From Romboutsia sp. CE17 (lineage in GTDB: Bacteria; Bacillota; Clostridia; Peptostreptococcales; Peptostreptococcaceae), in assembly GCF_012317385.1 (NCBI RefSeq), contig NZ_CP051144.1, positions 1,736,001 through 1,800,000 on the forward strand: a stretch of DNA of 64,000 bases, read 5' to 3'. Position numbers and translations under genes: made by a program. Each line of letters opens with the position of its first letter. Position 1 is the stretch's first letter. The notes beneath the pieces are model-generated. The model was not told the origin of the DNA, ran no database searches, and worked only from the letters and a program-made list of their open reading frames with translations. Positions 7,077 through 17,995 of this stretch are shown in pieces.

Positions 7077-8507
7077 TTAATTCCATCCAATTACTTTAGC
7101 TATTGTTATAAATACGATTCCTAGTACAAATAATATCCCTTGTAAAGGTAATATCCACTTAAACCACTTCGTATAAGGAATTCCTGCAATCCCTAAGCAA
7201 GCTATTAATATTCCTGATGTTGGGAACATTGCATTTGAGAATCCATCCCCAAATTGGAATATTAATACAGTTAACTGACGAGATATTCCTATTAAATCTC
7301 CAAGTGGAGCAAGAATTGGCATAGTTAATGCAGCTTGCCCTGAACCTGAGCTTATAAAGAAGTTTATAAACATTTGTATTGGCAACATTAAATATGCTGC
7401 AAGAATTCCTGGTATACTTCCTAAGATTTGAGATAGATTAAATAAAATAGTATCTATTATACTAGCATTTTCAGCTAATATTACTATACCTCTTGCAAAC
7501 CCTAACATAATTGCAGCACCCATCATATCTTTTGCGCCTAATATGAAAGCATCTGCCATTTCATCTGGACTTAACTTTCCTACTATACCAGCTAAAAAAC
7601 CAGTTGCTAAGAATACTGCTGCTATTTGTGGAATCCAAAACCCTTTAGCTAATACGCCCCAAATAATTATTCCCATACAAGCTGCAATCAAAAATAATAT
7701 TATTTTATGAGATAATAAGAAATTATCATCTTCACTCTCAAAATTAGATAAACTTTGACGTTTTTTCTGATCACTCTCATAAACAGGACTTAGTTTTTGA
7801 TTTTTCTTTATTTTACTAGCATATATCATAACAAATGCTACAGCTATAATTGTTGATACTAACCATACTATAGTTCTATACTCTATACCTGAGTACATTG
7901 GTATCTCTGCTATTGACTGAGCTATACCTACATTAAATGGATTAAGCATTGCTGCTGTAAATCCAATATTACATGCCAAGTAAGTAATAGCTACTGCTAC
8001 TATACTATCGTATCCTAATACTAATGTCAGCGGTACCATCATCGCAATAAACGGTATTGATTCTTCTGACATCCCAAATATTCCTCCACCTAAAGAGAAC
8101 ATAAAGAATATTATTGGTATTATTAAAATTTCCTTTCCTCTAAATACATTAACTATACGAACTATTCCAAAGTCAATTGCCTTTGTTTTTGTAATTATAT
8201 TAAAAGCACCACCTACTATAAATAAAAAGGCTATTATCTCTGCTCCTCCTATAATTCCTTGAATAGGCGCTTGTAATACATCAAATACTCCCTGTGGCTT
8301 ACTAGCAACATATTTAAATGAACCATCTACAACTAATGTCTTTCCATCAGCATTTACTATTTTTTCATAAGCACCACCTGGTACTATATATGTAGCCACT
8401 GCAACAAGTAGTATTATTGCACTTATGATTACTAGGGTATGTGGTACCTTAAACCCTTCACTAAATTTTTTCTTAGATACTCCTTTGTTTGACTGTTCTA
8501 AATTCAT
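7077..8507 (-). CDS. YfcC family transporter, lysine-riboswitch controlled
   Basis: Polytopic inner-membrane transporter (476 residues) with 11-13 hydrophobic segments; the GIFGMSEESIPF segment and the C-terminal SGSGQAALTMP and GDGFSNAMFPTSG motifs are those of the YfcC/DcuC-like group of amino-acid or dicarboxylate carriers. I prefer ATG at 8507, six bases after GGGAGTG; the GTG at 8516 overlaps that ribosome site. It is the first gene after the lysine riboswitch and is followed by an M20 peptidase, so lysine or a lysine-containing dipeptide is the likely cargo (inference). Confidence 0.85.
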   Translation of the reverse strand: MNLEQSNKGVSKKKFSEGFKVPHTLVIISAIILLVAVATYIVPGGAYEKIVNADGKTLVVDGSFKYVASKPQGVFDVLQAPIQGIIGGAEIIAFLFIVGGAFNIITKTKAIDFGIVRIVNVFRGKEILIIPIIFFMFSLGGGIFGMSEESIPFIAMMVPLTLVLGYDSIVAVAITYLACNIGFTAAMLNPFNVGIAQSIAEIPMYSGIEYRTIVWLVSTIIAVAFVMIYASKIKKNQKLSPVYESDQKKRQSLSNFESEDDNFLLSHKIILFLIAACMGIIIWGVLAKGFWIPQIAAVFLATGFLAGIVGKLSPDEMADAFILGAKDMMGAAIMLGFARGIVILAENASIIDTILFNLSQILGSIPGILAAYLMLPIQMFINFFISSGSGQAALTMPILAPLGDLIGISRQLTVLIFQFGDGFSNAMFPTSGILIACLGIAGIPYTKWFKWILPLQGILFVLGIVFITIAKVIGWN

Positions 8508-8538
8508 TACTATCACTCCCTATCTTATAATTGCCTAT

Positions 8539-8574
8539 AAAAAAAGTCTTGAGTGAAGCAAATCATTCAAGACT
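8539..8574 (-). terminator. Riboswitch expression-platform terminator
   Basis: Stem AGTCTTGA/TCAAGACT (8545-8552 with 8567-8574) is followed on the minus strand by a run of U (8539-8544). It lies between the lysine aptamer and the YfcC gene, so lysine would cause premature termination. Confidence 0.85.
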
Positions 8575-8644
8575 ATATTATTTATTAATATATTTATAAA
8601 TCGAGATGTTTTAGTAACTCAAATTTAAAATAATAAATATATCT

Positions 8645-9771: not shown

Positions 9772-12075
9772 TTAAATAAAGTCTAATATTTCTAATATTT
9801 CCTTTGCAACGTCTCTTTCTTTTCCTATATAAGGATATGAGTGAATATGAATTGCAGGATTAAAATTAAGTTCAATTATTGCATATTGCGAACTTTCATT
9901 AGTATAATCATCTATCATCATATCAACACCACAAATATTAGCTCCTATAGCTTTAGATGCCCTAACTGCTATATCTTTAAACTTTTGAGGTATATCATCA
10001 GTATAATCAATACTATCTCCACCTGTGCTAATATTTGAATTTTCTCTTAAATATACAGTTTCATCTTTTTTAGGAATATAGTCAAAATCAAGACCTCTAT
10101 GTTTTAAGAATAATGCAGCACTCTCATCTAAATTAATTTTCTCCAAAGGAGTCTTATATCCTTTTCCCCTTAATGGACTTTGATTTTTGATTTCTACTAA
10201 TTGTCTAATAGACTTTTCTCCATCACCAACTACATTAGCTGGGACTCTGTGAAGTATTCCTACAACCTTATCTCCTATAACTAAAAATCTATATTCTTTA
10301 CCACTTATAAACTCTTCAACTAAAACCGTATTATCATATTTAAATGCAATCTCAAATGCTCTTTTTATATCTTCTTTATTAGCACCTTGAGGGAATATAC
10401 TTATTCCTGTTCCAAAATTAGTTGACTTCGGCTTTATAACTATTGGCTTATTTATAAAGTTATCTATTTCGCTTATTGCATCATCAATATTATCAAATTC
10501 ACTTCCATCTGGAACTTTAATATCATTTATTTGTAATATCTTTTTAGTAACTACCTTATTTTCCATAGCGAGAACAGTTATATAATTATCTTTTGATGTT
10601 TTTGTTGCTTGCTTTACATACTCTATTTTATTATCTTTAGTAAGAGATATAAAATTATCACTTCTATCTATTAACTCAGTTTTAATACCTCTTTTAATTG
10701 CTTCTTTCATTAAAATTTGAGTTGATAATTCTAAATCTTCATATCCCTCTAGTTTAAATCTGTTGTTATATGCTAACTCTTTATACTCTTTAGCAAGGTT
10801 TAAATGAGCATTTATATATCCTTCTTTTTTTATCTTTTCAATCATTTTATAGGTATAAGTTTCTTTATAATCTTTAACTCTCTTTATTATATTATCTATT
10901 ATTTTATCTTGTCCTAATTTAAGTTCATCATTTATAACTTTAATTTTATTTAAAATTTCAAGACCCCATTCTATCTTTGATATAGTCTTTCCATCTTTAA
11001 TTAGATTAACATCTTTTTGACCTTGAGTTGCGATTATATTCTGATTTTTTAGTGCTTCTTGTTGCCAATATTCATAATTACTTTCATCTTCAATTAATAA
11101 AAATAAATTAAATACATTCATAAAATGTAAGTCATTTAAAGCTATTCCACCTTTTTCAAATGGGTTTATATCTATACTCCTATATTCTAAGTAATTTATA
11201 CCATCGTTCATTAAAGAATTTAATAAGGACTTAGGATCTTTTGCTTTTAACCTTATTGGAGCATATAACTCTCTAGGTGTATCTATTAAATCTTCATCTA
11301 TAAACTTATTAATACTACCAACATAATCCTTAACACTATTATAATTTGGGAATAAATCTATTTTATTTTTATATCCACATTCACTATTTCTATAAGATAA
11401 TGCTCCTTCATTTGAAAAACTATCTTTTGATATTTCTTCAAGCTGTTTTACACAATCTTCTTGATAACTTTCATGTACAACACCTGTACATCCTAAAAGG
11501 TATATAAGTAACCATCTATAACGAAGATAATTTCTTGTAACTTTTAAGTATAAATTATCTTTAAAAGTTTTATAGTCCTTTAATTTATCACTATTTTCAT
11601 ATAGCTTTTTTATTATATTTTCATTAAATGAAAAATTATAGTGTATCCCTGATATTAACTGCTTTTTACCGCCATATTTTAAAAATAATTCTTCTCGATA
11701 TTCTCTAGCTACTTTTCCTTCTTCACATCCACAAAACTCTGCTATTGGTATATCTTTATCCTCTGGTATTATAGCTGGCATAGATTGTGGCCATAAATAT
11801 TCATCTTCAAGCTCCATAGCTACTATGTCGTAAAGTGCATTTAAAAATTTATAAGTTTCTTCTGTCGTTGAAAATGCTGGTGTTATTAGTTCTAATTGAC
11901 TTTCTGAAAAGTCTGTTGTTATATACGGGTTACACATCTTATATCCAAAAACTGTTGGGTGTGGTTTTTGTGATAATTTTCCTTTGAAATCAACTCTAAG
12001 ACCTTCTCTTTCAACTCCAAAATTACCTTTTAATAATTCTTGTTTAGTAAATAAATTCTTTATTGTCTTAAGCAT
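9772..12075 (-). CDS. gshF: Bifunctional glutamate-cysteine ligase / glutathione synthetase
   Basis: Cytoplasmic fusion enzyme (767 residues, the usual GshF length) that makes glutathione from Glu, Cys and Gly. The N-terminal half is the GshA-type ligase (FGVEREGLRVD near 19-29; YLEYRSIDINP near 295), and the C-terminal 270 residues are an ATP-grasp synthetase (VIKPKSTNFGTGISIF, VGDGEKSI, NFNPAIHIHSYP). Its start overlaps the end of the upstream MATE gene by eight bases, so the two are translationally coupled. The shared upstream region carries ArsR-type palindromes, suggesting arsenic- or metal-induced glutathione synthesis. Confidence 0.95.
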   Translation of the reverse strand: MLKTIKNLFTKQELLKGNFGVEREGLRVDFKGKLSQKPHPTVFGYKMCNPYITTDFSESQLELITPAFSTTEETYKFLNALYDIVAMELEDEYLWPQSMPAIIPEDKDIPIAEFCGCEEGKVAREYREELFLKYGGKKQLISGIHYNFSFNENIIKKLYENSDKLKDYKTFKDNLYLKVTRNYLRYRWLLIYLLGCTGVVHESYQEDCVKQLEEISKDSFSNEGALSYRNSECGYKNKIDLFPNYNSVKDYVGSINKFIDEDLIDTPRELYAPIRLKAKDPKSLLNSLMNDGINYLEYRSIDINPFEKGGIALNDLHFMNVFNLFLLIEDESNYEYWQQEALKNQNIIATQGQKDVNLIKDGKTISKIEWGLEILNKIKVINDELKLGQDKIIDNIIKRVKDYKETYTYKMIEKIKKEGYINAHLNLAKEYKELAYNNRFKLEGYEDLELSTQILMKEAIKRGIKTELIDRSDNFISLTKDNKIEYVKQATKTSKDNYITVLAMENKVVTKKILQINDIKVPDGSEFDNIDDAISEIDNFINKPIVIKPKSTNFGTGISIFPQGANKEDIKRAFEIAFKYDNTVLVEEFISGKEYRFLVIGDKVVGILHRVPANVVGDGEKSIRQLVEIKNQSPLRGKGYKTPLEKINLDESAALFLKHRGLDFDYIPKKDETVYLRENSNISTGGDSIDYTDDIPQKFKDIAVRASKAIGANICGVDMMIDDYTNESSQYAIIELNFNPAIHIHSYPYIGKERDVAKEILEILDFI

Positions 12076-13387
12076 ATCTTTCGTCCTTTCCTACCTTAAG
12101 TCTATACATTATATATGATGCAATTCCTTTTAAGATACTTGATACTGAGATACTTAACCATACACCATTTACATCGAAATATTTTATAAATACTAATGCC
12201 ATAGGTATTCTAAGCACAGTAAATATAATACTTATAGTAGCTGGAATATTTGGCATACCAAGACCTGTAAACATACCATTTGAAACCATCTCAATGGCAC
12301 TAAATATTTGTGAGTATGCTATTGTTTGTAAATACATACTAGCAATTTTTATAGTAGAATCATCTTTTATGAAAATAGTTACTATATATTCTGGGAATAG
12401 TATAAATACTATTGATGTAATAACTGCATATACTATACCTATGTTTAAAGATGTACGATATCCCTTTATAATTCTGTCGTACTTTTTAGCACCAAAGTTT
12501 TGACCTGTAAAGCTTGCTATAGCTCCATTTAATCCACCGATTACCATAAATGTTATTGACTCTATTTGAAGTCCTATCTTTTGACCTGCTATTGCATCTG
12601 ATCCAAATATAGATATTATTCTAGCTAGTATTATATTAACTAATGTAAATAGTATTCTTTGAAAAGACATTGGAAATCCTAATCTTATTATTTCAATAAC
12701 CTTAGATTTCTCTATTCCTATTTTAAAGTCAAAATTAAATAATCCTTTTGAGTTTATTCTAAACATTATAAACATAACTATATTTGATATTAATGTTGCT
12801 ATGGCTGCCCCTAATACCCCAAATTTAAACATGTATATAAATATTGGATCTAAAATTATATTTAAAACTATACCTACAACACTTATTTTAAGAGCATTTG
12901 AGTTATGTCCATAACTACCAAGAATTCTTATATACATTTGATTAAAGAATGAGAAAAATAGCATTGGGGCACTTACAATTAGATATAAATTAGCACCTTT
13001 TTCAACCACTTCATTTCCTAAATTTAAGAAACCTATAAAATACTTACCTGCAAATATAAGAATTAGCGCATATAAAAGACCAAGAATAAAGTTAACAAAT
13101 ATTCCTGAATTTATATATGCTTTAGCCTTATGTTCTTCATTACTTCCTAGTGCATGTGAAACCTTTATTCCAGCTCCTATTACTACAAGTGTATTTATAG
13201 AATATCCAAGCCCTATAAAAAAGCTTGAGGAACCAACACTTGCAACAGCATCACTTCCAAGTCCTCCAACCCAAAACATATCTACTATGTTGTAGGTGAA
13301 TTGTAAAAGTGAACTACCCATTATTGGTATAGCCAATGCTGCTATTACGGATAGTACCTTTCCTTGTGTCAAATCCACTTTTTTCAT
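12068..13387 (-). CDS. MATE family efflux transporter
   Basis: Inner-membrane antiporter of 439 residues with about twelve membrane segments in two similar halves, as in the NorM/DinF group (GLGSDAVASVGSSSFFIGLG in the first half, SIFGSDAIAGQKIGLQIES in the second). GGAGAAAG precedes the ATG. It is first in a two-gene operon with gshF. MATE proteins export cations and drugs; the coupling to glutathione synthesis suggests export of a glutathione conjugate or an oxidising toxicant, which is an inference. ArsR-like boxes lie 190 and 340 bases upstream. Confidence 0.9.
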   Translation of the reverse strand: MKKVDLTQGKVLSVIAALAIPIMGSSLLQFTYNIVDMFWVGGLGSDAVASVGSSSFFIGLGYSINTLVVIGAGIKVSHALGSNEEHKAKAYINSGIFVNFILGLLYALILIFAGKYFIGFLNLGNEVVEKGANLYLIVSAPMLFFSFFNQMYIRILGSYGHNSNALKISVVGIVLNIILDPIFIYMFKFGVLGAAIATLISNIVMFIMFRINSKGLFNFDFKIGIEKSKVIEIIRLGFPMSFQRILFTLVNIILARIISIFGSDAIAGQKIGLQIESITFMVIGGLNGAIASFTGQNFGAKKYDRIIKGYRTSLNIGIVYAVITSIVFILFPEYIVTIFIKDDSTIKIASMYLQTIAYSQIFSAIEMVSNGMFTGLGMPNIPATISIIFTVLRIPMALVFIKYFDVNGVWLSISVSSILKGIASYIMYRLKVGKDERYA

Positions 13388-13578
13388 TTCTTTCTCCTTT
13401 ATTTATTACTTAATTATATTTTGATATTCTTTTTGTGCTTTGTCTAAATACATTATTAACTAATGCTATAAATATTTTTATAATGTTAATGCATACTATA
13501 TTTTGATATGTATAGTTATTATTAGATTTTGACCATATTTAATTCGAATTATATCAATATAAGGTCACCATAGATAAC

Positions 13579-13594
13579 ATCAACTTTTTTTGAT
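13579..13594. promoter_or_regulatory. ArsR-type operator upstream of MATE-gshF
   Basis: Palindrome ATCAA-N6-TTGAT (spacer CTTTTT), with the same half-sites and spacing as the site upstream of arsR at 17522. It lies about 190 bases before the MATE start. ATCAA/TTGAT half-sites are typical of ArsR/SmtB operators. Confidence 0.6.
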
Positions 13595-13725
13595 ATTTAA
13601 AATATAATCGTATAACTTGCATTTTATATATCAATATATCTTACTAATTATTATTTTTAGCATGTTTATTTTGGTACATTATATATTTTCTGTATTAAAT
13701 ATATTACCATATATCAAAACTTAAA

Positions 13726-13741
13726 ATCAATTTTTTTTGAT
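13726..13741. promoter_or_regulatory. Second ArsR-type operator upstream of MATE-gshF
   Basis: Palindrome ATCAA-TTTTTT-TTGAT, identical in all 16 bases to the site upstream of arsR at 17522-17537. It lies in the gap between the arsA/thioredoxin-remnant end and the MATE-gshF operon. Confidence 0.6.
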
Positions 13742-13809
13742 GTTAATTATAAAAAATATTAAAATACCATTTTTATATTAATAAAAAATTAATAAATTTT
13801 AACTATATA

Positions 13810-13865
13810 AAAGTAGTAAAAATAGGAATATTAAATTACTTTAATTTCCTATTTTTTACTACTTT
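13810..13865. terminator. Hairpin ending the arsA transcript region
   Basis: A stem of about 19 bp (13810-13828 with 13846-13865, one bulge), T-rich on both strands, lies downstream of arsA and the thioredoxin remnant and upstream of the MATE operon. It probably separates the two transcripts. Confidence 0.6.
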
Positions 13866-13901
13866 ATCTTATCTCAATTTAGTGACATTATATCTAATTA
13901 C

Positions 13902-14017
13902 CTAGGTCTTCAAATACTGCTCTAACATTTTACAAGATCCACACCAAGTTTCAAAAAATCTACTACAACTATTCCCTTTTCTATTTCTGTATCAAAATTA
14001 TTATTATCTATTATTTT
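13902..14017 (-). pseudogene. Truncated, frameshifted thioredoxin remnant
   Basis: Directly downstream of arsA on the same strand, behind a good AGGAG (about 14033-14037), the reading KIIDNNNFDTEIEKGIVVVDF is thioredoxin-like. After a T run near 13952-13958 the frame shifts, and the next frame reads ETWCGSCKMLEQYLKT (WCGSC at 13932-13946) before a stop at 13902-13904. The active-site motif, the preceding VVVDF strand and the position are all as in thioredoxin, but the start codon is missing (an in-frame TAA sits at 14018-14020), a base is lost and the last 60 or so residues are absent. Probably a decayed arsenic-operon thioredoxin. Confidence 0.72.
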
Positions 14018-14044
14018 TTATATTTTATTTTTCTCCTTAGTTAA

Positions 14045-15865
14045 TTAAAATATATTGTTACCTATCCTTGTTAACATATCTATACCTTTTATCTCTTTAT
14101 CATACATAGGGACTATAGCTACCTCAGAATTTTTAAAGTCACTCTTTATTTCATCTAGATATTTTTCTTGCATATTTCTTCTATTTCTAAAGAATGGTGT
14201 AGTTGCTTGTTCCACAGGTATTATAAGATTTGCTATAACCATTTGAGTTTCAATTCCAACAGTTTTAAGTTCTTCACTAGCTCTATATGCCTCTATTATA
14301 GGAGTTTTTTCAGGATACATTACAAAACTAAATGTAGTTTTATCCTTATCCTTCATAGTAGCTATAACTCTGTCAAATTTTTCTTTTTGCTTTTTATCTT
14401 CTTCACTTATTTCAGAAGTAACTCCTGCCTTCATTTGAATTTGCTTTGACCAGTCCATTGGAAGTTCTAATAGTCTTAAAGTATGACCAGTTGGAGCTGT
14501 ATCAAATACTATAACGTCATATTCTTCTTCTGAAGCATATGATATAAACTTTTGGAAGGCTGCCATTTCTTCAGTACATGGAGAATTTAATTCTTCTTCC
14601 ATAGTAGCTATTGTTGGATCACTAAATTTAGATTTAGCATCTTTTAAAACTATTTCTTTGTATTCTTCAAAAGCCACTTTAGGATCAATTTTTGCTGCAT
14701 ATAAATTAGCGCATCCATCTATTGGTGCTGGATTATCTTCTATTGGCTTATCTAAAACTTTTCCTATGTGATCTGCTGGGTCTGTTGTAAGTAGTAATGT
14801 TTTATGCCCTTCGTTAGCAGCTTTAACAGCTGTTATACAAGCCATTACTGTTTTTCCAACTCCACCTTTTCCTGAGAAGAATACATTTCTTACAGAGTTT
14901 TCTTTAGGTAATATTAATTTTTTAGCATCTTCATTTTTTTCTATTTTAATATCATCAATATTTTTATATTCTACTTTAGTAGTTTTTTGTGGCTTCTTAC
15001 CTTCAAATAATATAGAAGCACTTACTCTAAATCTATCTATGCCTTTAAGCTCACTATCAAATAACTCCATAGTATCTATAGGTAAATTCCCAAAGATATC
15101 TTTAGCTTTATTTAGATAACTTTGTTGCATTTCATATCTTGATTTAAAGAAGGGTGTCAATGCTTCCTCTTCTGGTATAAACCCATTGATTATAACCTTT
15201 GTAGTTGATATTCCAAGCTCACTTAATTCATGTGATGCTCTTATAGTTTCATCTAATGAAGTTAGTTCAGGTTGCATAACAAATATAAAATCAGTTTGAG
15301 AAGTATCTCTAAGCTTTGCAATAGCTCTATCGAACTTATCTTTACTATCTTGTATCATAGATACTGGACCCATACAAGTTTGACCACTCCCTTGAGCACT
15401 TTCTTCTATATGTTTAGACCAATCTATAGGAAGTTCTAAAAGCCTTATTGTATGCCCTGTTGGAGCTGTATCAAATATTATAACGTTATAATCATCTATT
15501 TCCATAAAGTCAATGAACCTATCAAATGATGCCATCTCTTCTGTACATGGTCCACTTAATTGTTCATCTGCTATTCTTATCATTTCTTCATCAAAGATTT
15601 CTCTCATTGGAGCAAGTAAATTTTCTTTATACTCATTAGTTGCTTCATCTGGATCTATTTCCATAGCATAAAGATTTTCTATATTATTTATTTTAGTTAT
15701 TTTATGACCTATTTCTTGTTCAAAAACATCTGATAAGTTAGCAGCAGGGTCTGTTGTTACTATTAAAGTTTTTAGCCCTTTATCAGCATTATAAACTCCT
15801 GTAGTACAAGCCATTGACGTCTTTCCAACTCCACCTTTTCCTGAGAAAAATAAAAATTGTGTCAT
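14045..15865 (-). CDS. arsA: ArsA, arsenite/antimonite-stimulated ATPase
   Basis: Cytosolic ATPase of the arsenite extrusion system, 606 residues with two homologous halves. P-loops GKGGVGKT at 9-16 and 332-339; DTAPTGHT signal-transduction motifs at 132-139 and 455-462; three candidate metal-site cysteines Cys107, Cys164 and Cys430 match the arrangement of E. coli ArsA (Cys113, 172, 422). It starts one base after arsD ends, so they are co-translated. ArsA normally energises the membrane pump ArsB, but no arsB or acr3 gene lies in this window, leaving its partner unknown. Confidence 0.95.
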   Translation of the reverse strand: MTQFLFFSGKGGVGKTSMACTTGVYNADKGLKTLIVTTDPAANLSDVFEQEIGHKITKINNIENLYAMEIDPDEATNEYKENLLAPMREIFDEEMIRIADEQLSGPCTEEMASFDRFIDFMEIDDYNVIIFDTAPTGHTIRLLELPIDWSKHIEESAQGSGQTCMGPVSMIQDSKDKFDRAIAKLRDTSQTDFIFVMQPELTSLDETIRASHELSELGISTTKVIINGFIPEEEALTPFFKSRYEMQQSYLNKAKDIFGNLPIDTMELFDSELKGIDRFRVSASILFEGKKPQKTTKVEYKNIDDIKIEKNEDAKKLILPKENSVRNVFFSGKGGVGKTVMACITAVKAANEGHKTLLLTTDPADHIGKVLDKPIEDNPAPIDGCANLYAAKIDPKVAFEEYKEIVLKDAKSKFSDPTIATMEEELNSPCTEEMAAFQKFISYASEEEYDVIVFDTAPTGHTLRLLELPMDWSKQIQMKAGVTSEISEEDKKQKEKFDRVIATMKDKDKTTFSFVMYPEKTPIIEAYRASEELKTVGIETQMVIANLIIPVEQATTPFFRNRRNMQEKYLDEIKSDFKNSEVAIVPMYDKEIKGIDMLTRIGNNIF

Positions 15866-15866
15866 G

Positions 15867-16175
15867 CTAATAACCTCTTAAACTTGACTTTAATTCATCT
15901 AATGTTGGATATGCTCCAGTTTTTATTACTTTTCCATTTAAAACTGTTATTGGAAGTATCTTTTGACCATTTTCTCTTACAAGTTTCCCTACTTCCATAT
16001 TAGCCATAAACTTCATTGAATGAGTTTGTGGCTGATATCTTTCTACAAGTAATCCTTTAAATTCATTTTTTAGTATTTCTATATTCTCGCTTATTTTTAC
16101 TAAGTTTTCATCTACGCTAGGACCACAAATCCCTGTAGAACAACACATTGTAGGTTCAAATATTTCTATTTTCAT
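15867..16175 (-). CDS. arsD: ArsD arsenic metallochaperone
   Basis: Small cytosolic protein (102 residues) that hands As(III) to ArsA. The CCSTGIC motif gives Cys11, Cys12 and Cys17, equivalent to the essential Cys12-13-18 of the plasmid-borne ArsD. I prefer ATG at 16175, eight bases after GGAG; GTG 16184 and ATG 16181 are too near that site. Lies between the metallophosphoesterase and arsA. Confidence 0.93.
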   Translation of the reverse strand: MKIEIFEPTMCCSTGICGPSVDENLVKISENIEILKNEFKGLLVERYQPQTHSMKFMANMEVGKLVRENGQKILPITVLNGKVIKTGAYPTLDELKSSLRGY

Positions 16176-16292
16176 TTTCATCACTCCAATTTTTATATTT
16201 AGATTTTTATTTATTTAATAATTTACTTCACAAACCAACTTATCTAATGTTTTAGGTATTTATAGTAAATATCCCCCAATAATTTGTTTTAT

Positions 16293-17036
16293 TTACTTTG
16301 AACTACCTTCTCTTATAAGTCTTGCAAAATCATTTGGCAGTATTTCATTATCCTCAATTTCTTTTGCTATTTGTTCAAAATCATAAGCTACCTCAACTAT
16401 TTCAACTTCAACACTTGAAGAAGTCTTTACTAACTCATCTTCATTTTTTATATCTATAATTACATAGTTTGCATCAGGTCTATTAGTTTTTGGCTTACCA
16501 ACGCTTCCTGCATTTACAAGTAGTTTTTCACCATAATATTTAGTATATGGTATATGAGTATGACCACAAACTAGTATATCTTCAACTAATTCATTCATAA
16601 CTTCATCTGCTTCTTTTGAGTTTTCTTTTAAATACTCATTTATAACTCTTGTACTTCCATGTACAAATCTTATAGTTTTGTTGCTAAAAGTAAATACTGC
16701 TTCTTTAGGTAAATTTCTTAGATAAGCTTTATTTTCTAGTGTTGTTTCTTGACCTGTAAAATTCATTGAAAGACTAGCTTTTTCAGCATCCTTTGGGTCA
16801 GGATAATCGCAGCCACATATTATCTTAAAGTTACCTATTGCTTCATCATAATTCCCCATTATAGTAAGTATCTTTTCTTCTTTAATCCTATGTATAACTT
16901 CATTTGGACGAGTTCCATATCCAACTAAATCTCCTGTACAGACTATCATATCTACATTTCTATTTTTTATATCCTCTATTACCTTATCTAATGCATATAT
17001 ATTGCTGTGTATATCTGATATTACTGCTATTCTCAT
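16293..17036 (-). CDS. Calcineurin-like metallophosphoesterase of the ars operon
   Basis: Cytosolic YfcE/MJ0936-like phosphodiesterase fold, 247 residues. Metal ligands visible in order: DIHSN at 8-12, GDLVGYG near 40, GNYDE near 68, the HG of VHGST near 130 and GHTH near 164. It starts 12 bases after arsR and precedes arsD, so it belongs to the ars transcript. Such phosphoesterases recur in clostridial ars operons but their role in arsenic handling is not known to me. Substrate unknown. Confidence 0.85.
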   Translation of the reverse strand: MRIAVISDIHSNIYALDKVIEDIKNRNVDMIVCTGDLVGYGTRPNEVIHRIKEEKILTIMGNYDEAIGNFKIICGCDYPDPKDAEKASLSMNFTGQETTLENKAYLRNLPKEAVFTFSNKTIRFVHGSTRVINEYLKENSKEADEVMNELVEDILVCGHTHIPYTKYYGEKLLVNAGSVGKPKTNRPDANYVIIDIKNEDELVKTSSSVEVEIVEVAYDFEQIAKEIEDNEILPNDFARLIREGSSK

Positions 17037-17048
17037 TTGTGTATCCTC

Positions 17049-17444
17049 CTATTTAGATGATTTTCTTTCGTTTATTTTGCTTATTATATCTTTAACCTTA
17101 GATACATTTTCACAATTTAATCCAGCTTGCCTATATCCCATTAAAATATCGTAGTCATTTTTTAATTTTTCATCTTCATCTAATTCATTTTCTAAAAGAA
17201 CTTTTATAAAACTATATTTATTTAAAGTTTCTTCATCTAGTTTGTAATAAACGTATTTTGCTTCTTTATAGCAAGTCACTATATTTGCATTCATTAATTT
17301 ACTTAAGTGTCTTGATGCATTAGATTGAGTAATCTCAAGTATCGACTCTATTTCACAAACACACAAAGGCCCATCTCTTAAAATATTTACTATTCTTATT
17401 CTAGTCTCATCTCCTAATGCTTTTAACATCTGTACAGTATTCAT
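17049..17444 (-). CDS. arsR: ArsR family As(III)-responsive repressor
   Basis: Winged-helix repressor of 131 residues. The LCVCE motif at about 28-32 supplies the paired cysteines used by classical ArsR to bind As(III)/Sb(III), and TQSNASRHLSKL is the recognition helix. The C-terminal 35 residues, with one further Cys, extend beyond the minimal family length. First gene of arsR-phosphoesterase-arsD-arsA. A perfect 16-base palindrome lies just upstream of its promoter, so it is probably autoregulated. Confidence 0.92.
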   Translation of the reverse strand: MNTVQMLKALGDETRIRIVNILRDGPLCVCEIESILEITQSNASRHLSKLMNANIVTCYKEAKYVYYKLDEETLNKYSFIKVLLENELDEDEKLKNDYDILMGYRQAGLNCENVSKVKDIISKINERKSSK

Positions 17445-17485
17445 AACGTCTCCTTTCTCATATTAACATATTCACTTTTAATCAT

Positions 17486-17514
17486 ATGATATGTAGAAAA
17501 ATCTTTTTTGTAAA
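17486..17514 (-). promoter_or_regulatory. Promoter of the arsR operon
   Basis: On the minus strand TTTACA (17509-17514) and TATCAT (17486-17491) are 17 bases apart and 42 bases before arsR. The ArsR-type palindrome ends seven bases upstream of the -35. Confidence 0.55.
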
Positions 17515-17521
17515 CTATAAA

Positions 17522-17537
17522 ATCAATTTTTTTTGAT
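17522..17537. promoter_or_regulatory. ArsR operator of the ars operon
   Basis: Perfect palindrome ATCAA-TTTTTT-TTGAT, extended by AAA and TTT outside, next to the arsR promoter. The same 16 bases recur at 13726 upstream of MATE-gshF. Confidence 0.7.
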
Positions 17538-17684: not shown

Positions 17685-17957
17685 ATGGACAACATAGATT
17701 TGATTTTTAAAGCTTTATCTGATCCTATAAGACTAAACATATTAAAAAAACTATATTCAGCTGAAAGTGTTTGTGTTTGTGAGCTAACAGATATATTTGA
17801 TATATCTCAATCAAAGCTCTCTTATCACTTAAAATTATTACTTTCTGCAAACCTTATAAATAAGACATCTAAAGGAAAATGGAATTTCTACTCTGTTAAT
17901 AAAGATACAATTTCAAGAGTATTAACTTATGAAATCATTCAAAAATTATTTTTATAA
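17685..17957 (+). CDS. Second ArsR family repressor with CVCEL motif
   Basis: Short winged-helix regulator (90 residues, compact ArsR length). VCVCELTDIF near residues 28-37 has the paired cysteines of As(III)-sensing ArsR, and SQSKLSYHLKLLL is the recognition helix. ATG at 17685 follows GGAGGT by six bases; a GTG at 17661 falls in the promoter and is not used. It is divergent from arsR and stands alone. Its helix differs clearly from the first ArsR, so the two may read different sites. Confidence 0.85.
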   Translation: MDNIDLIFKALSDPIRLNILKKLYSAESVCVCELTDIFDISQSKLSYHLKLLLSANLINKTSKGKWNFYSVNKDTISRVLTYEIIQKLFL

Positions 17958-17980: not shown

Positions 17981-17995
17981 ATCAAAAAAATTGAT
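17981..17995. promoter_or_regulatory. ATCAA-N5-TTGAT palindrome, possible ArsR-type site
   Basis: Same half-sites as the three N6 boxes but one base closer. It lies between two convergent genes, so a promoter role is doubtful; it may be a decoy, a relic or chance. Confidence 0.25.

Follow-up and report, generated by a model that had tools for sequence, protein, structure and literature searches.

A predicted ArsR2-type operator points to joint arsenic control of a MATE exporter and glutathione synthesis in Romboutsia sp. CE17

Why would a palindrome that stands between two divergent genes for arsenic-type repressors, arsR1 and arsR2, recur upstream of a MATE-family exporter gene and of gshF, the gene for a bifunctional enzyme of glutathione synthesis? 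The question is raised by a stretch of 64,000 nucleotides (contig NZ_CP051144.1, positions 1,736,001 to 1,800,000; hereafter the window, with positions counted from its first letter) in the single-contig, 3.12-Mb genome of Romboutsia sp. CE17 (G000). We consider it probable, at roughly two chances in three, that ArsR2 releases a module of glutathione synthesis and export upon arsenical exposure, and that the exporter probably moves thiol-bound arsenic. Comparison across relatives makes regulation by an ArsR2-type operator well supported; binding, the inducer, the inducibility of glutathione and, above all, the exported substrate are what we infer from it.

The shared palindrome and its repressor

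The minus strand carries, in order, arsR1, a metallophosphoesterase gene, arsD, arsA, a 0.66-kb gap and MATE-gshF, with arsR2 diverging from position 17685; the reading frames for ArsR1, ArsR2, the phosphoesterase, ArsD, ArsA, MATE and GshF are uninterrupted from end to end. The features on which the argument turns are these:

17522 to 17537, unstranded: predicted ArsR2-type operator, ATCAATTTTTTTTGAT, in the arsR1-arsR2 divergent region, just upstream of the arsR1 -35
13726 to 13741, unstranded: predicted ArsR2-type operator, ATCAATTTTTTTTGAT, 339 bp upstream of the MATE start
13579 to 13594, unstranded: predicted ArsR2-type operator, ATCAACTTTTTTTGAT, 192 bp upstream of the MATE start, differing in the spacer alone
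17465 to 17490, minus strand: second conserved element, over the arsR1 -10, proposed ArsR1 operator; the sole copy in the window, with none before MATE
17685 to 17957, plus strand: arsR2, 90-aa ArsR/SmtB repressor with a CVC motif (NF033788, 85.4 bits, cut-off 55; HTH_5, 53.1 bits, cut-off 22)
17049 to 17444, minus strand: arsR1, 131-aa ArsR/SmtB repressor with a CVC motif and a C-terminal Cys
12068 to 13387, minus strand: MATE-family exporter (TIGR00797, 255.9 bits, cut-off 147.4, residues 21-410)
9772 to 12075, minus strand: gshF, bifunctional glutamate-cysteine ligase / glutathione synthetase (NF002688, 1010.4 bits, cut-off 425, residues 2-766)

An earlier sequence-only reading of this DNA had reported the palindrome as exact at 17522 and 13726, with the same half-sites and spacing at 13579, and had described an eight-base overlap of MATE and gshF. 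Both observations hold: the two open reading frames (ORFs) share positions 12068-12075, and a pattern search of the 64 kb for exact ATCAA-N6-TTGAT returns these three sites and no further one. The site at 17522 lies 7 bases from a -35-like TTTACA (17514)-N17-TATCAT and 78 bp from the arsR1 start; a promoter scan gave no excess over shuffles, and our promoter readings rest on alignment and inspection by eye. First-order Markov resamplings of the window contain the exact pattern 0.33 times on average, with 1 in 400 reaching three, and its version with an A/T-tract spacer 0.005 times, with none in 400 reaching three; for the two intergenic stretches alone the resampled mean is likewise 0.005, and 0 of 5000 reached three.

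The bare half-sites are a different matter. Genome-wide they occur 18 times, only twofold over the 9 of a reversed control, and with one mismatch allowed the window holds 9 matches against 10.16 expected, that is, no enrichment; as evidence, the bare pattern was rejected. Outside the window, 12 of its 15 sites fall inside ORFs of at least 70 aa and three are intergenic with mixed spacers (C1:1264833, 2409404 and 3003729 of G000); no arsenic gene was recognised by eye in the 2-kb stretches at these three. The concern of the sequence-only reading that the palindrome might turn up at many unrelated loci thus applies in part to the half-sites and not to the A-tract dyad, whose exact 16-mer has two copies in the genome, both in the window.

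Conservation among relatives is where the dyad gains its weight. Across 71 genomes of the family the exact 16-mer occurs 45 times, against 2 for its reversed control, and the dyad's outer bases, which the search left free, hardly vary: among 55 collected sites, 53 have A at -2 and 54 have T at +17, in a set that includes overlapping relatives and, outside the window, A/T-tract-spacer sites only. In relatives it sits at the promoters of arsR2, of an ArsP_1-family permease and of MATE-gshF, and of the 15 arsR1 promoters compared, 7 have the exact N6 dyad where the window has its site at 17522. R. weinsteinii (contig L002 of G002) has two before the ArsP_1-type permease gene, one before arsR1, two before MATE-gshF and further ones at a second arsR2 locus; a chicken Romboutsia metagenome-assembled genome (MAG; contig L001 of G085) has them before the permease gene, arsR2 and MATE-gshF; and in G032, G020, G004 and G012 they stand at arsR1, at arsR2 or between arsR2 and the permease gene. 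The dyad runs into TATAAT in all six permease promoters printed, as expected for a repressor site. The permease beside arsR2 matches PF03773 (225.1 bits in G085, cut-off 32.3), and we name it only as ArsP_1 family because the NCBIfam models stay below their cut-offs. Before MATE itself, or its operon, A-tract dyads are found at 6 of 16 orthologous loci (G000, G002, G085, G068, G160 and pBNS11, a plasmid of Ligilactobacillus salivarius), the orthologues being drawn from the 71 family genomes, a class-wide sample of 391 genomes, a scan of named genomes and a plasmid collection. The two-site layout recurs in G002, G068 and G160; the 13726 site has a counterpart with similar flanks in G068 (by eye), and the 13579 site aligns with the single pre-MATE site of G085 and of the plasmid. 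We take the half-sites alone as weak evidence, and the A-tract dyad with its conservation in relatives as strong evidence.

Which of the two repressors would own the dyad is suggested by co-occurrence. The exact 16-mer is present in 20 of 21 family genomes with ArsR2 and in 6 of 50 others (Fisher 1.9e-11, a value that overstates independence, the 71 genomes being related). An ArsR2-positive genome is one with a homologue of at least 53% identity, a cut set after the hits were seen; five weak hits of 42-49% (G026, G034, G021, G088, G089) were counted as negative, and as positives they give 20/26 against 6/45. In 16 of the 20 genomes the 16-mer lies within about 1 kb of an arsR2. It is found in all three genomes that have ArsR2 without an ArsR1 orthologue (G001, G023, G008; best ArsR1 hits about 2e-11) and in none of the five with ArsR1 and no ArsR2 (G013, G014, G010, G027 and G028, the last a broken copy), the ArsR1 search covering 61 genomes. 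Remnants survive at the same place in ArsR1-only genomes, with a one-base-shorter spacer (N5) in G014 and in mutated form in G013 and G010. Where arsR1 and arsR2 sit on separate contigs (G007 and G085) the 16-mers are at arsR2, and the arsR1 promoter of G085 carries a two-base-shorter form; all 15 arsR1 promoters share, by eye, the other element over the -10, around CATATGATTAAAAGTGAATATG. This suggests that the dyad belongs to ArsR2 and the -10 element to ArsR1. The earlier proposal, joint control of the ars genes and a thiol-and-exporter module by one of the two ArsR repressors, is thereby supported by comparison, with co-occurrence pointing to ArsR2. The CVC motif is kept in 11 of 11 aligned ArsR2 rows, and in E. 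coli ArsR such a cysteine pair, in the helix of the metal site, binds trivalent arsenic. A sequence search of the PDB with ArsR2 returned distant ArsR-family chains only, and several ArsR-type sensor models match the window's ArsR proteins, all below cut-off except the general one. At one further place, G022 C3:63530, roughly 100 bp separate an exact 16-mer from the gene of a more distant ArsR-family member, which hints that the operator may be used beyond ArsR2 orthologues.

The MATE-gshF pair among relatives

GshF joins ligase and ATP-grasp domains in one full-length protein, above the curated cut-off in a profile search, and its closest named records are from Romboutsia (89 and 88%), on contigs of G085 and G002, two genomes placed in the window's family by genome search. 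A MATE orthologue (69% or more) and gshF occur in the same 5 of 71 family genomes, adjacent and overlapping each time, and all five have an ArsR-type operator or ars genes nearby (one with operators alone visible); the other 66 show no gshF, the search not having extended to separate gshA/gshB, glutathione S-transferase, glutathione reductase and glutaredoxin genes. In the wider set gshF directly follows 14 of the 16 MATE orthologues, in G123 with its C-terminal half only; at L118 (7996-10358) the gene after MATE encodes just one half of GshF, the C-terminal one with the glutathione synthetase. The synteny with ars genes that the sequence-only reading had named as a check is seen: ars genes lie within 5 kb of MATE at 10 of 16 loci, and within 1.5 kb at 8 of 16, against 0 of 25 MATE paralogues (p 1.3e-4), none of which has gshF within 1.5 kb either. 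These neighbourhood counts cover only the reference genes supplied, two of which (an ArsR and an ArsC) came from target loci; the ArsR genes in question were also matched when the two were left out, which leaves the count of 8 in 16 intact.

The linkage takes several forms. The order arsR-MATE-gshF is found in L003, L117 and L086, arsR-arsC-MATE in L116 (in G384, which has no gshF), MATE-gshF-arsD-arsA in L113, acr3-site-MATE-gshF in L001 and L110, and arsR2-sites-gamma-glutamyl-hydrolase-like gene-MATE-gshF in L112. Such variety argues for a functional tie over one inherited neighbourhood. The hydrolase-like gene before MATE is intact in G160 (L112 9253-9975), broken in G068 (L035 424-1128) and a remnant in R. 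weinsteinii (L002, about 8416-8634), and was perhaps part of the original operon. In G068 two dyads precede the broken hydrolase-like gene and MATE, and the contig ends, so that ars linkage cannot be judged there.

What the exporter carries is the least certain step, and here the protein offers suggestive features. The window's MATE has no cysteine, as is true of 10 of the 16 orthologues, and two arginines, R154 and R244, are invariant in 16 of 16; at these positions 25 paralogues have A (23) or G (2), and S (20), N (3) or G (1), one row being unlisted at the latter. The lack of cysteine and the arginine pair would fit an anionic, thiol-shielded substrate. R244 alone is no signature, since Aq128, a more distant solved MATE, also has an arginine aligned with it; R154 aligns next to an asparagine of PfMATE, which we take to be N157 of its cavity network. 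An AlphaFold2 model built from 4 sequences (mean predicted local distance difference test score 50.8) was too poor to place R154 and R244 at the cavity. That MATE exports a glutathione conjugate is what we infer from these features taken with its neighbours.

The pair also travels. A pig isolate of L. salivarius carries MATE-gshF with its upstream dyad on the megaplasmid pBNS11, typed as mobilisable, between genes for recombinases/transposases and genes for aminoglycoside resistance; missing there are arsR2 and the phosphoesterase gene, and the permease and acr3 genes are shortened. The plasmid and the chicken MAG contig (L110 3776-9924 against L001) are 98.5% identical over 4973 bp, which points to a recent transfer of MATE-gshF. 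Misbinning of the MAG contig is possible, but in both arsR2 and MATE it is similar to the Romboutsia relatives. Further plasmid hits (H3-H7), at 36-44% identity, fall outside the examined set.

The remaining ars locus

Around the two repressor genes the window holds both intact genes and debris:

16293 to 17036, minus strand: metallophosphoesterase with C74-x-C76, resembling a Car1-type As(V) reductase
15867 to 16184, minus strand: arsD, arsenic metallochaperone (NF033727, 112.6 bits, cut-off 90)
14045 to 15865, minus strand: arsA, two-domain pump ATPase (PF02374, 523.9 bits, two stretches)
16237 to 16280, minus strand: acr3 relic between arsD and the metallophosphoesterase gene, 79.5% over 44 nt to the acr3 of L002 (E 2.6e-6), with an in-frame stop
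13897 to 14008, minus strand: thioredoxin-gene relic downstream of arsA, in three short pieces, one with WCGSCKML
17981 to 17995, unstranded: dyad whose spacer is one base shorter (N5), downstream of arsR2; at this place relatives have operators and the ArsP_1-family permease gene

The metallophosphoesterase looks like a Car1-type arsenate reductase: cysteines of the C74/C76 type are named for Car1 in the portions of PMC12124457 considered here, and all 15 compared copies, that of the window among them, have the C-x-C at 74-76. The gene stands after arsR1 in the window and at 14 annotated arsR1 loci, but not in G019. In relatives, thioredoxin and ferredoxin-like genes follow arsA (L002 6719-7821, L122 3059-3655), and in L002 a gene of a C-GCAxxG-C-C family is also present there. 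A profile search of G000 for Acr3 (TIGR00832) and ArsB (PF02040) gave 0 matches; the same models find Acr3 in 2 of 4 relatives, ArsB in 4 of 6, and match the named control genomes. Either export has passed to MATE-GshF, or the locus is in decay and these genes are the last to disappear.

Competing readings and known systems

We propose that AnATCAA-A/T tract-TTGATnT would be the operator of ArsR2, whose targets would comprise the arsR1/As(V)-reductase/arsDA operon, its own divergent gene (with the ArsP_1-family permease gene in relatives) and the MATE-gshF operon. Arsenate would be reduced, and a trivalent arsenical seated on the CVC cysteines would free ArsR2 from DNA; GshF would build glutathione from Glu, Cys and Gly; glutathione would capture trivalent arsenic, and may also feed arsenate reduction; and MATE would export the arsenic-glutathione conjugate. 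A bolder version, in which glutathione synthesis is arsenic-inducible, horizontally mobile and not housekeeping, and the cysteine-free MATE with its arginine pair exports the complex in place of the lost Acr3, we advance only tentatively, and would sooner bet against than for.

Several observations weigh against our proposal. The ars locus of the window is decaying, with acr3, the thioredoxin gene and the ArsP_1 permease gene lost and only the shortened dyad left at the relatives' permease position, so it may be on its way out instead of re-tooled. No dyad was found within the 1.5 kb fetched around an arsR2 copy of 89% identity (G032 C1:164612, L141), while a 59% copy 11 kb from it has several; nor was one found in the 1.5 kb fetched around the arsR2 homologues of 53-58% in G031, G072, G073 and G074, and six genomes carry the 16-mer with no ArsR2 hit above the cut. 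At 10 of 16 MATE loci no A-tract dyad lies upstream, so any ArsR control there would use other operators; 6 of 16 (G354, G257, G123, G230, Ilyobacter and G068) have no ars gene within 5 kb; and G384 and G257 have MATE without gshF.

As to the operator, the dyad might instead be that of ArsR1, which would then tie MATE-gshF to the ars operon. The nearness of the 17522 site to the arsR1 start, the exact dyads in 7 of 15 arsR1 promoters and the arsR2 copies with no dyad nearby all speak for this; we judge it very unlikely given the 0/5 against 3/3 split between ArsR1-only and ArsR2-only genomes and the different -10 element shared by the arsR1 promoters, which does not occur before MATE. It is scarcely credible that the palindromes arose by chance from A/T-rich sequence, or are terminators, and have no regulatory meaning: bare half-sites are common in this A+T-rich genome, but positions and outer bases are conserved in relatives, the 16-mer exceeds its control 45 to 2, and the terminator reading was rejected with 0 terminator-like structures found.

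With the operator granted to ArsR2, the substrate can still be read otherwise. It is possible, if doubtful, that the module is arsenic-regulated and the cargo of MATE is a free trivalent arsenical, or an organoarsenical, with glutathione serving only as redox buffer or as reductant for arsenate reductase; the arsR-arsC-MATE arrangement without gshF in G384 would suit this, as would the relic state of the thioredoxin gene beside an intact gshF and a reductase-like gene, yet gshF stands directly beside 14 of 16 MATE orthologues, even where no ars genes are near (G354, G230, Ilyobacter), and MATE is cysteine-free in 10 of 16. Those same ars-free pairs, together with the hydrolase-like gene in G160, G068 (broken) and G002 (remnant), invite the thought that MATE exports glutathione or a gamma-glutamyl peptide and that a general thiol-export module came under arsenic control only late. 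This we find unlikely, for ars linkage in several arrangements with different ArsR proteins is hard to square with plain glutathione export. Nor do we favour a general soft-metal module whose ArsR proteins chiefly sense a different thiophilic metal such as antimony, bismuth or cadmium: the metal cannot be read from a CVC motif alone and the specific sensor models stay below cut-off, but the relatives' neighbours are arsenic genes (arsD, arsA, acr3, arsenate reductases), which makes it quite improbable.

Should our proposal of ArsR2-controlled MATE-gshF be right, these anaerobes, some of which come from animal guts, are expected to raise their glutathione in response to arsenic. The shared operator and the recurrence of the pair beside arsenic genes in relatives suggest that glutathione is produced here when needed, to counter arsenic, and the finding of gshF only beside one MATE, in an ars-type context, would explain why few family members make it. 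MATE would join the exporter types linked to ars control, the dyad provides an operator with which to seek the regulon in other genomes, and the module is present as well on the mobilisable-type plasmid of the Lactobacillaceae isolate from a pig. In the literature searched, which mostly left out subscription papers, we recognised no description of MATE-gshF under ArsR; a dedicated MATE pump for the arsenic-glutathione complex, as in our bolder version, would be of a kind without description in that literature.

How, then, does it compare with what is known? The enzyme is the same full-length bifunctional protein as bacterial GshF (GshAB), here confined to 5 of 71 family genomes, beside one MATE and with an arsenic-type operator upstream. 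The eukaryotic export of As(GS)3 by the ABC pump MRP2 (among the references of PMC4435449) likewise captures arsenic with glutathione before exporting it, through an ABC ATPase and not a MATE, and no shared ancestry is implied; Ycf1 is another ABC pump that exports As(GS)3. Among ars operons, the survey in PMC4435449 sorted 717 transporters of 685 operons into ACR3, ArsB, ArsP, MFS, MIP, ABC and minor groups; there, too, the exporter is co-controlled with arsR, and Table 1 of that survey, in the portion considered, has no MATE class (8 entries are 'hypothetical'). The clostridial ars operons of Paraclostridium dentum IIB4 and T. petrolearius IIB7, as excerpts of PMC12124457 give them, hold arsR, a Car1-like reductase, acr3, arsP, arsD and arsA. 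The window resembles them in arsR with a two-cysteine metallophosphoesterase, arsD, arsA and a thioredoxin-family gene, and differs in that acr3 is a relic and MATE-gshF stands under the same operator, those excerpts mentioning neither a MATE nor a glutathione-synthesis gene. Wide ArsR regulons are described for Agrobacterium (PMC7965956, whose text, as considered, never uses the word glutathione), and in E. coli, according to parts of PMC12821715, GshB rises with As(III) largely independently of ArsR and GshA is highest without ArsR. In both organisms, as far as these portions go, ArsR acts on genes beyond the ars operon, as we propose for ArsR2 here.

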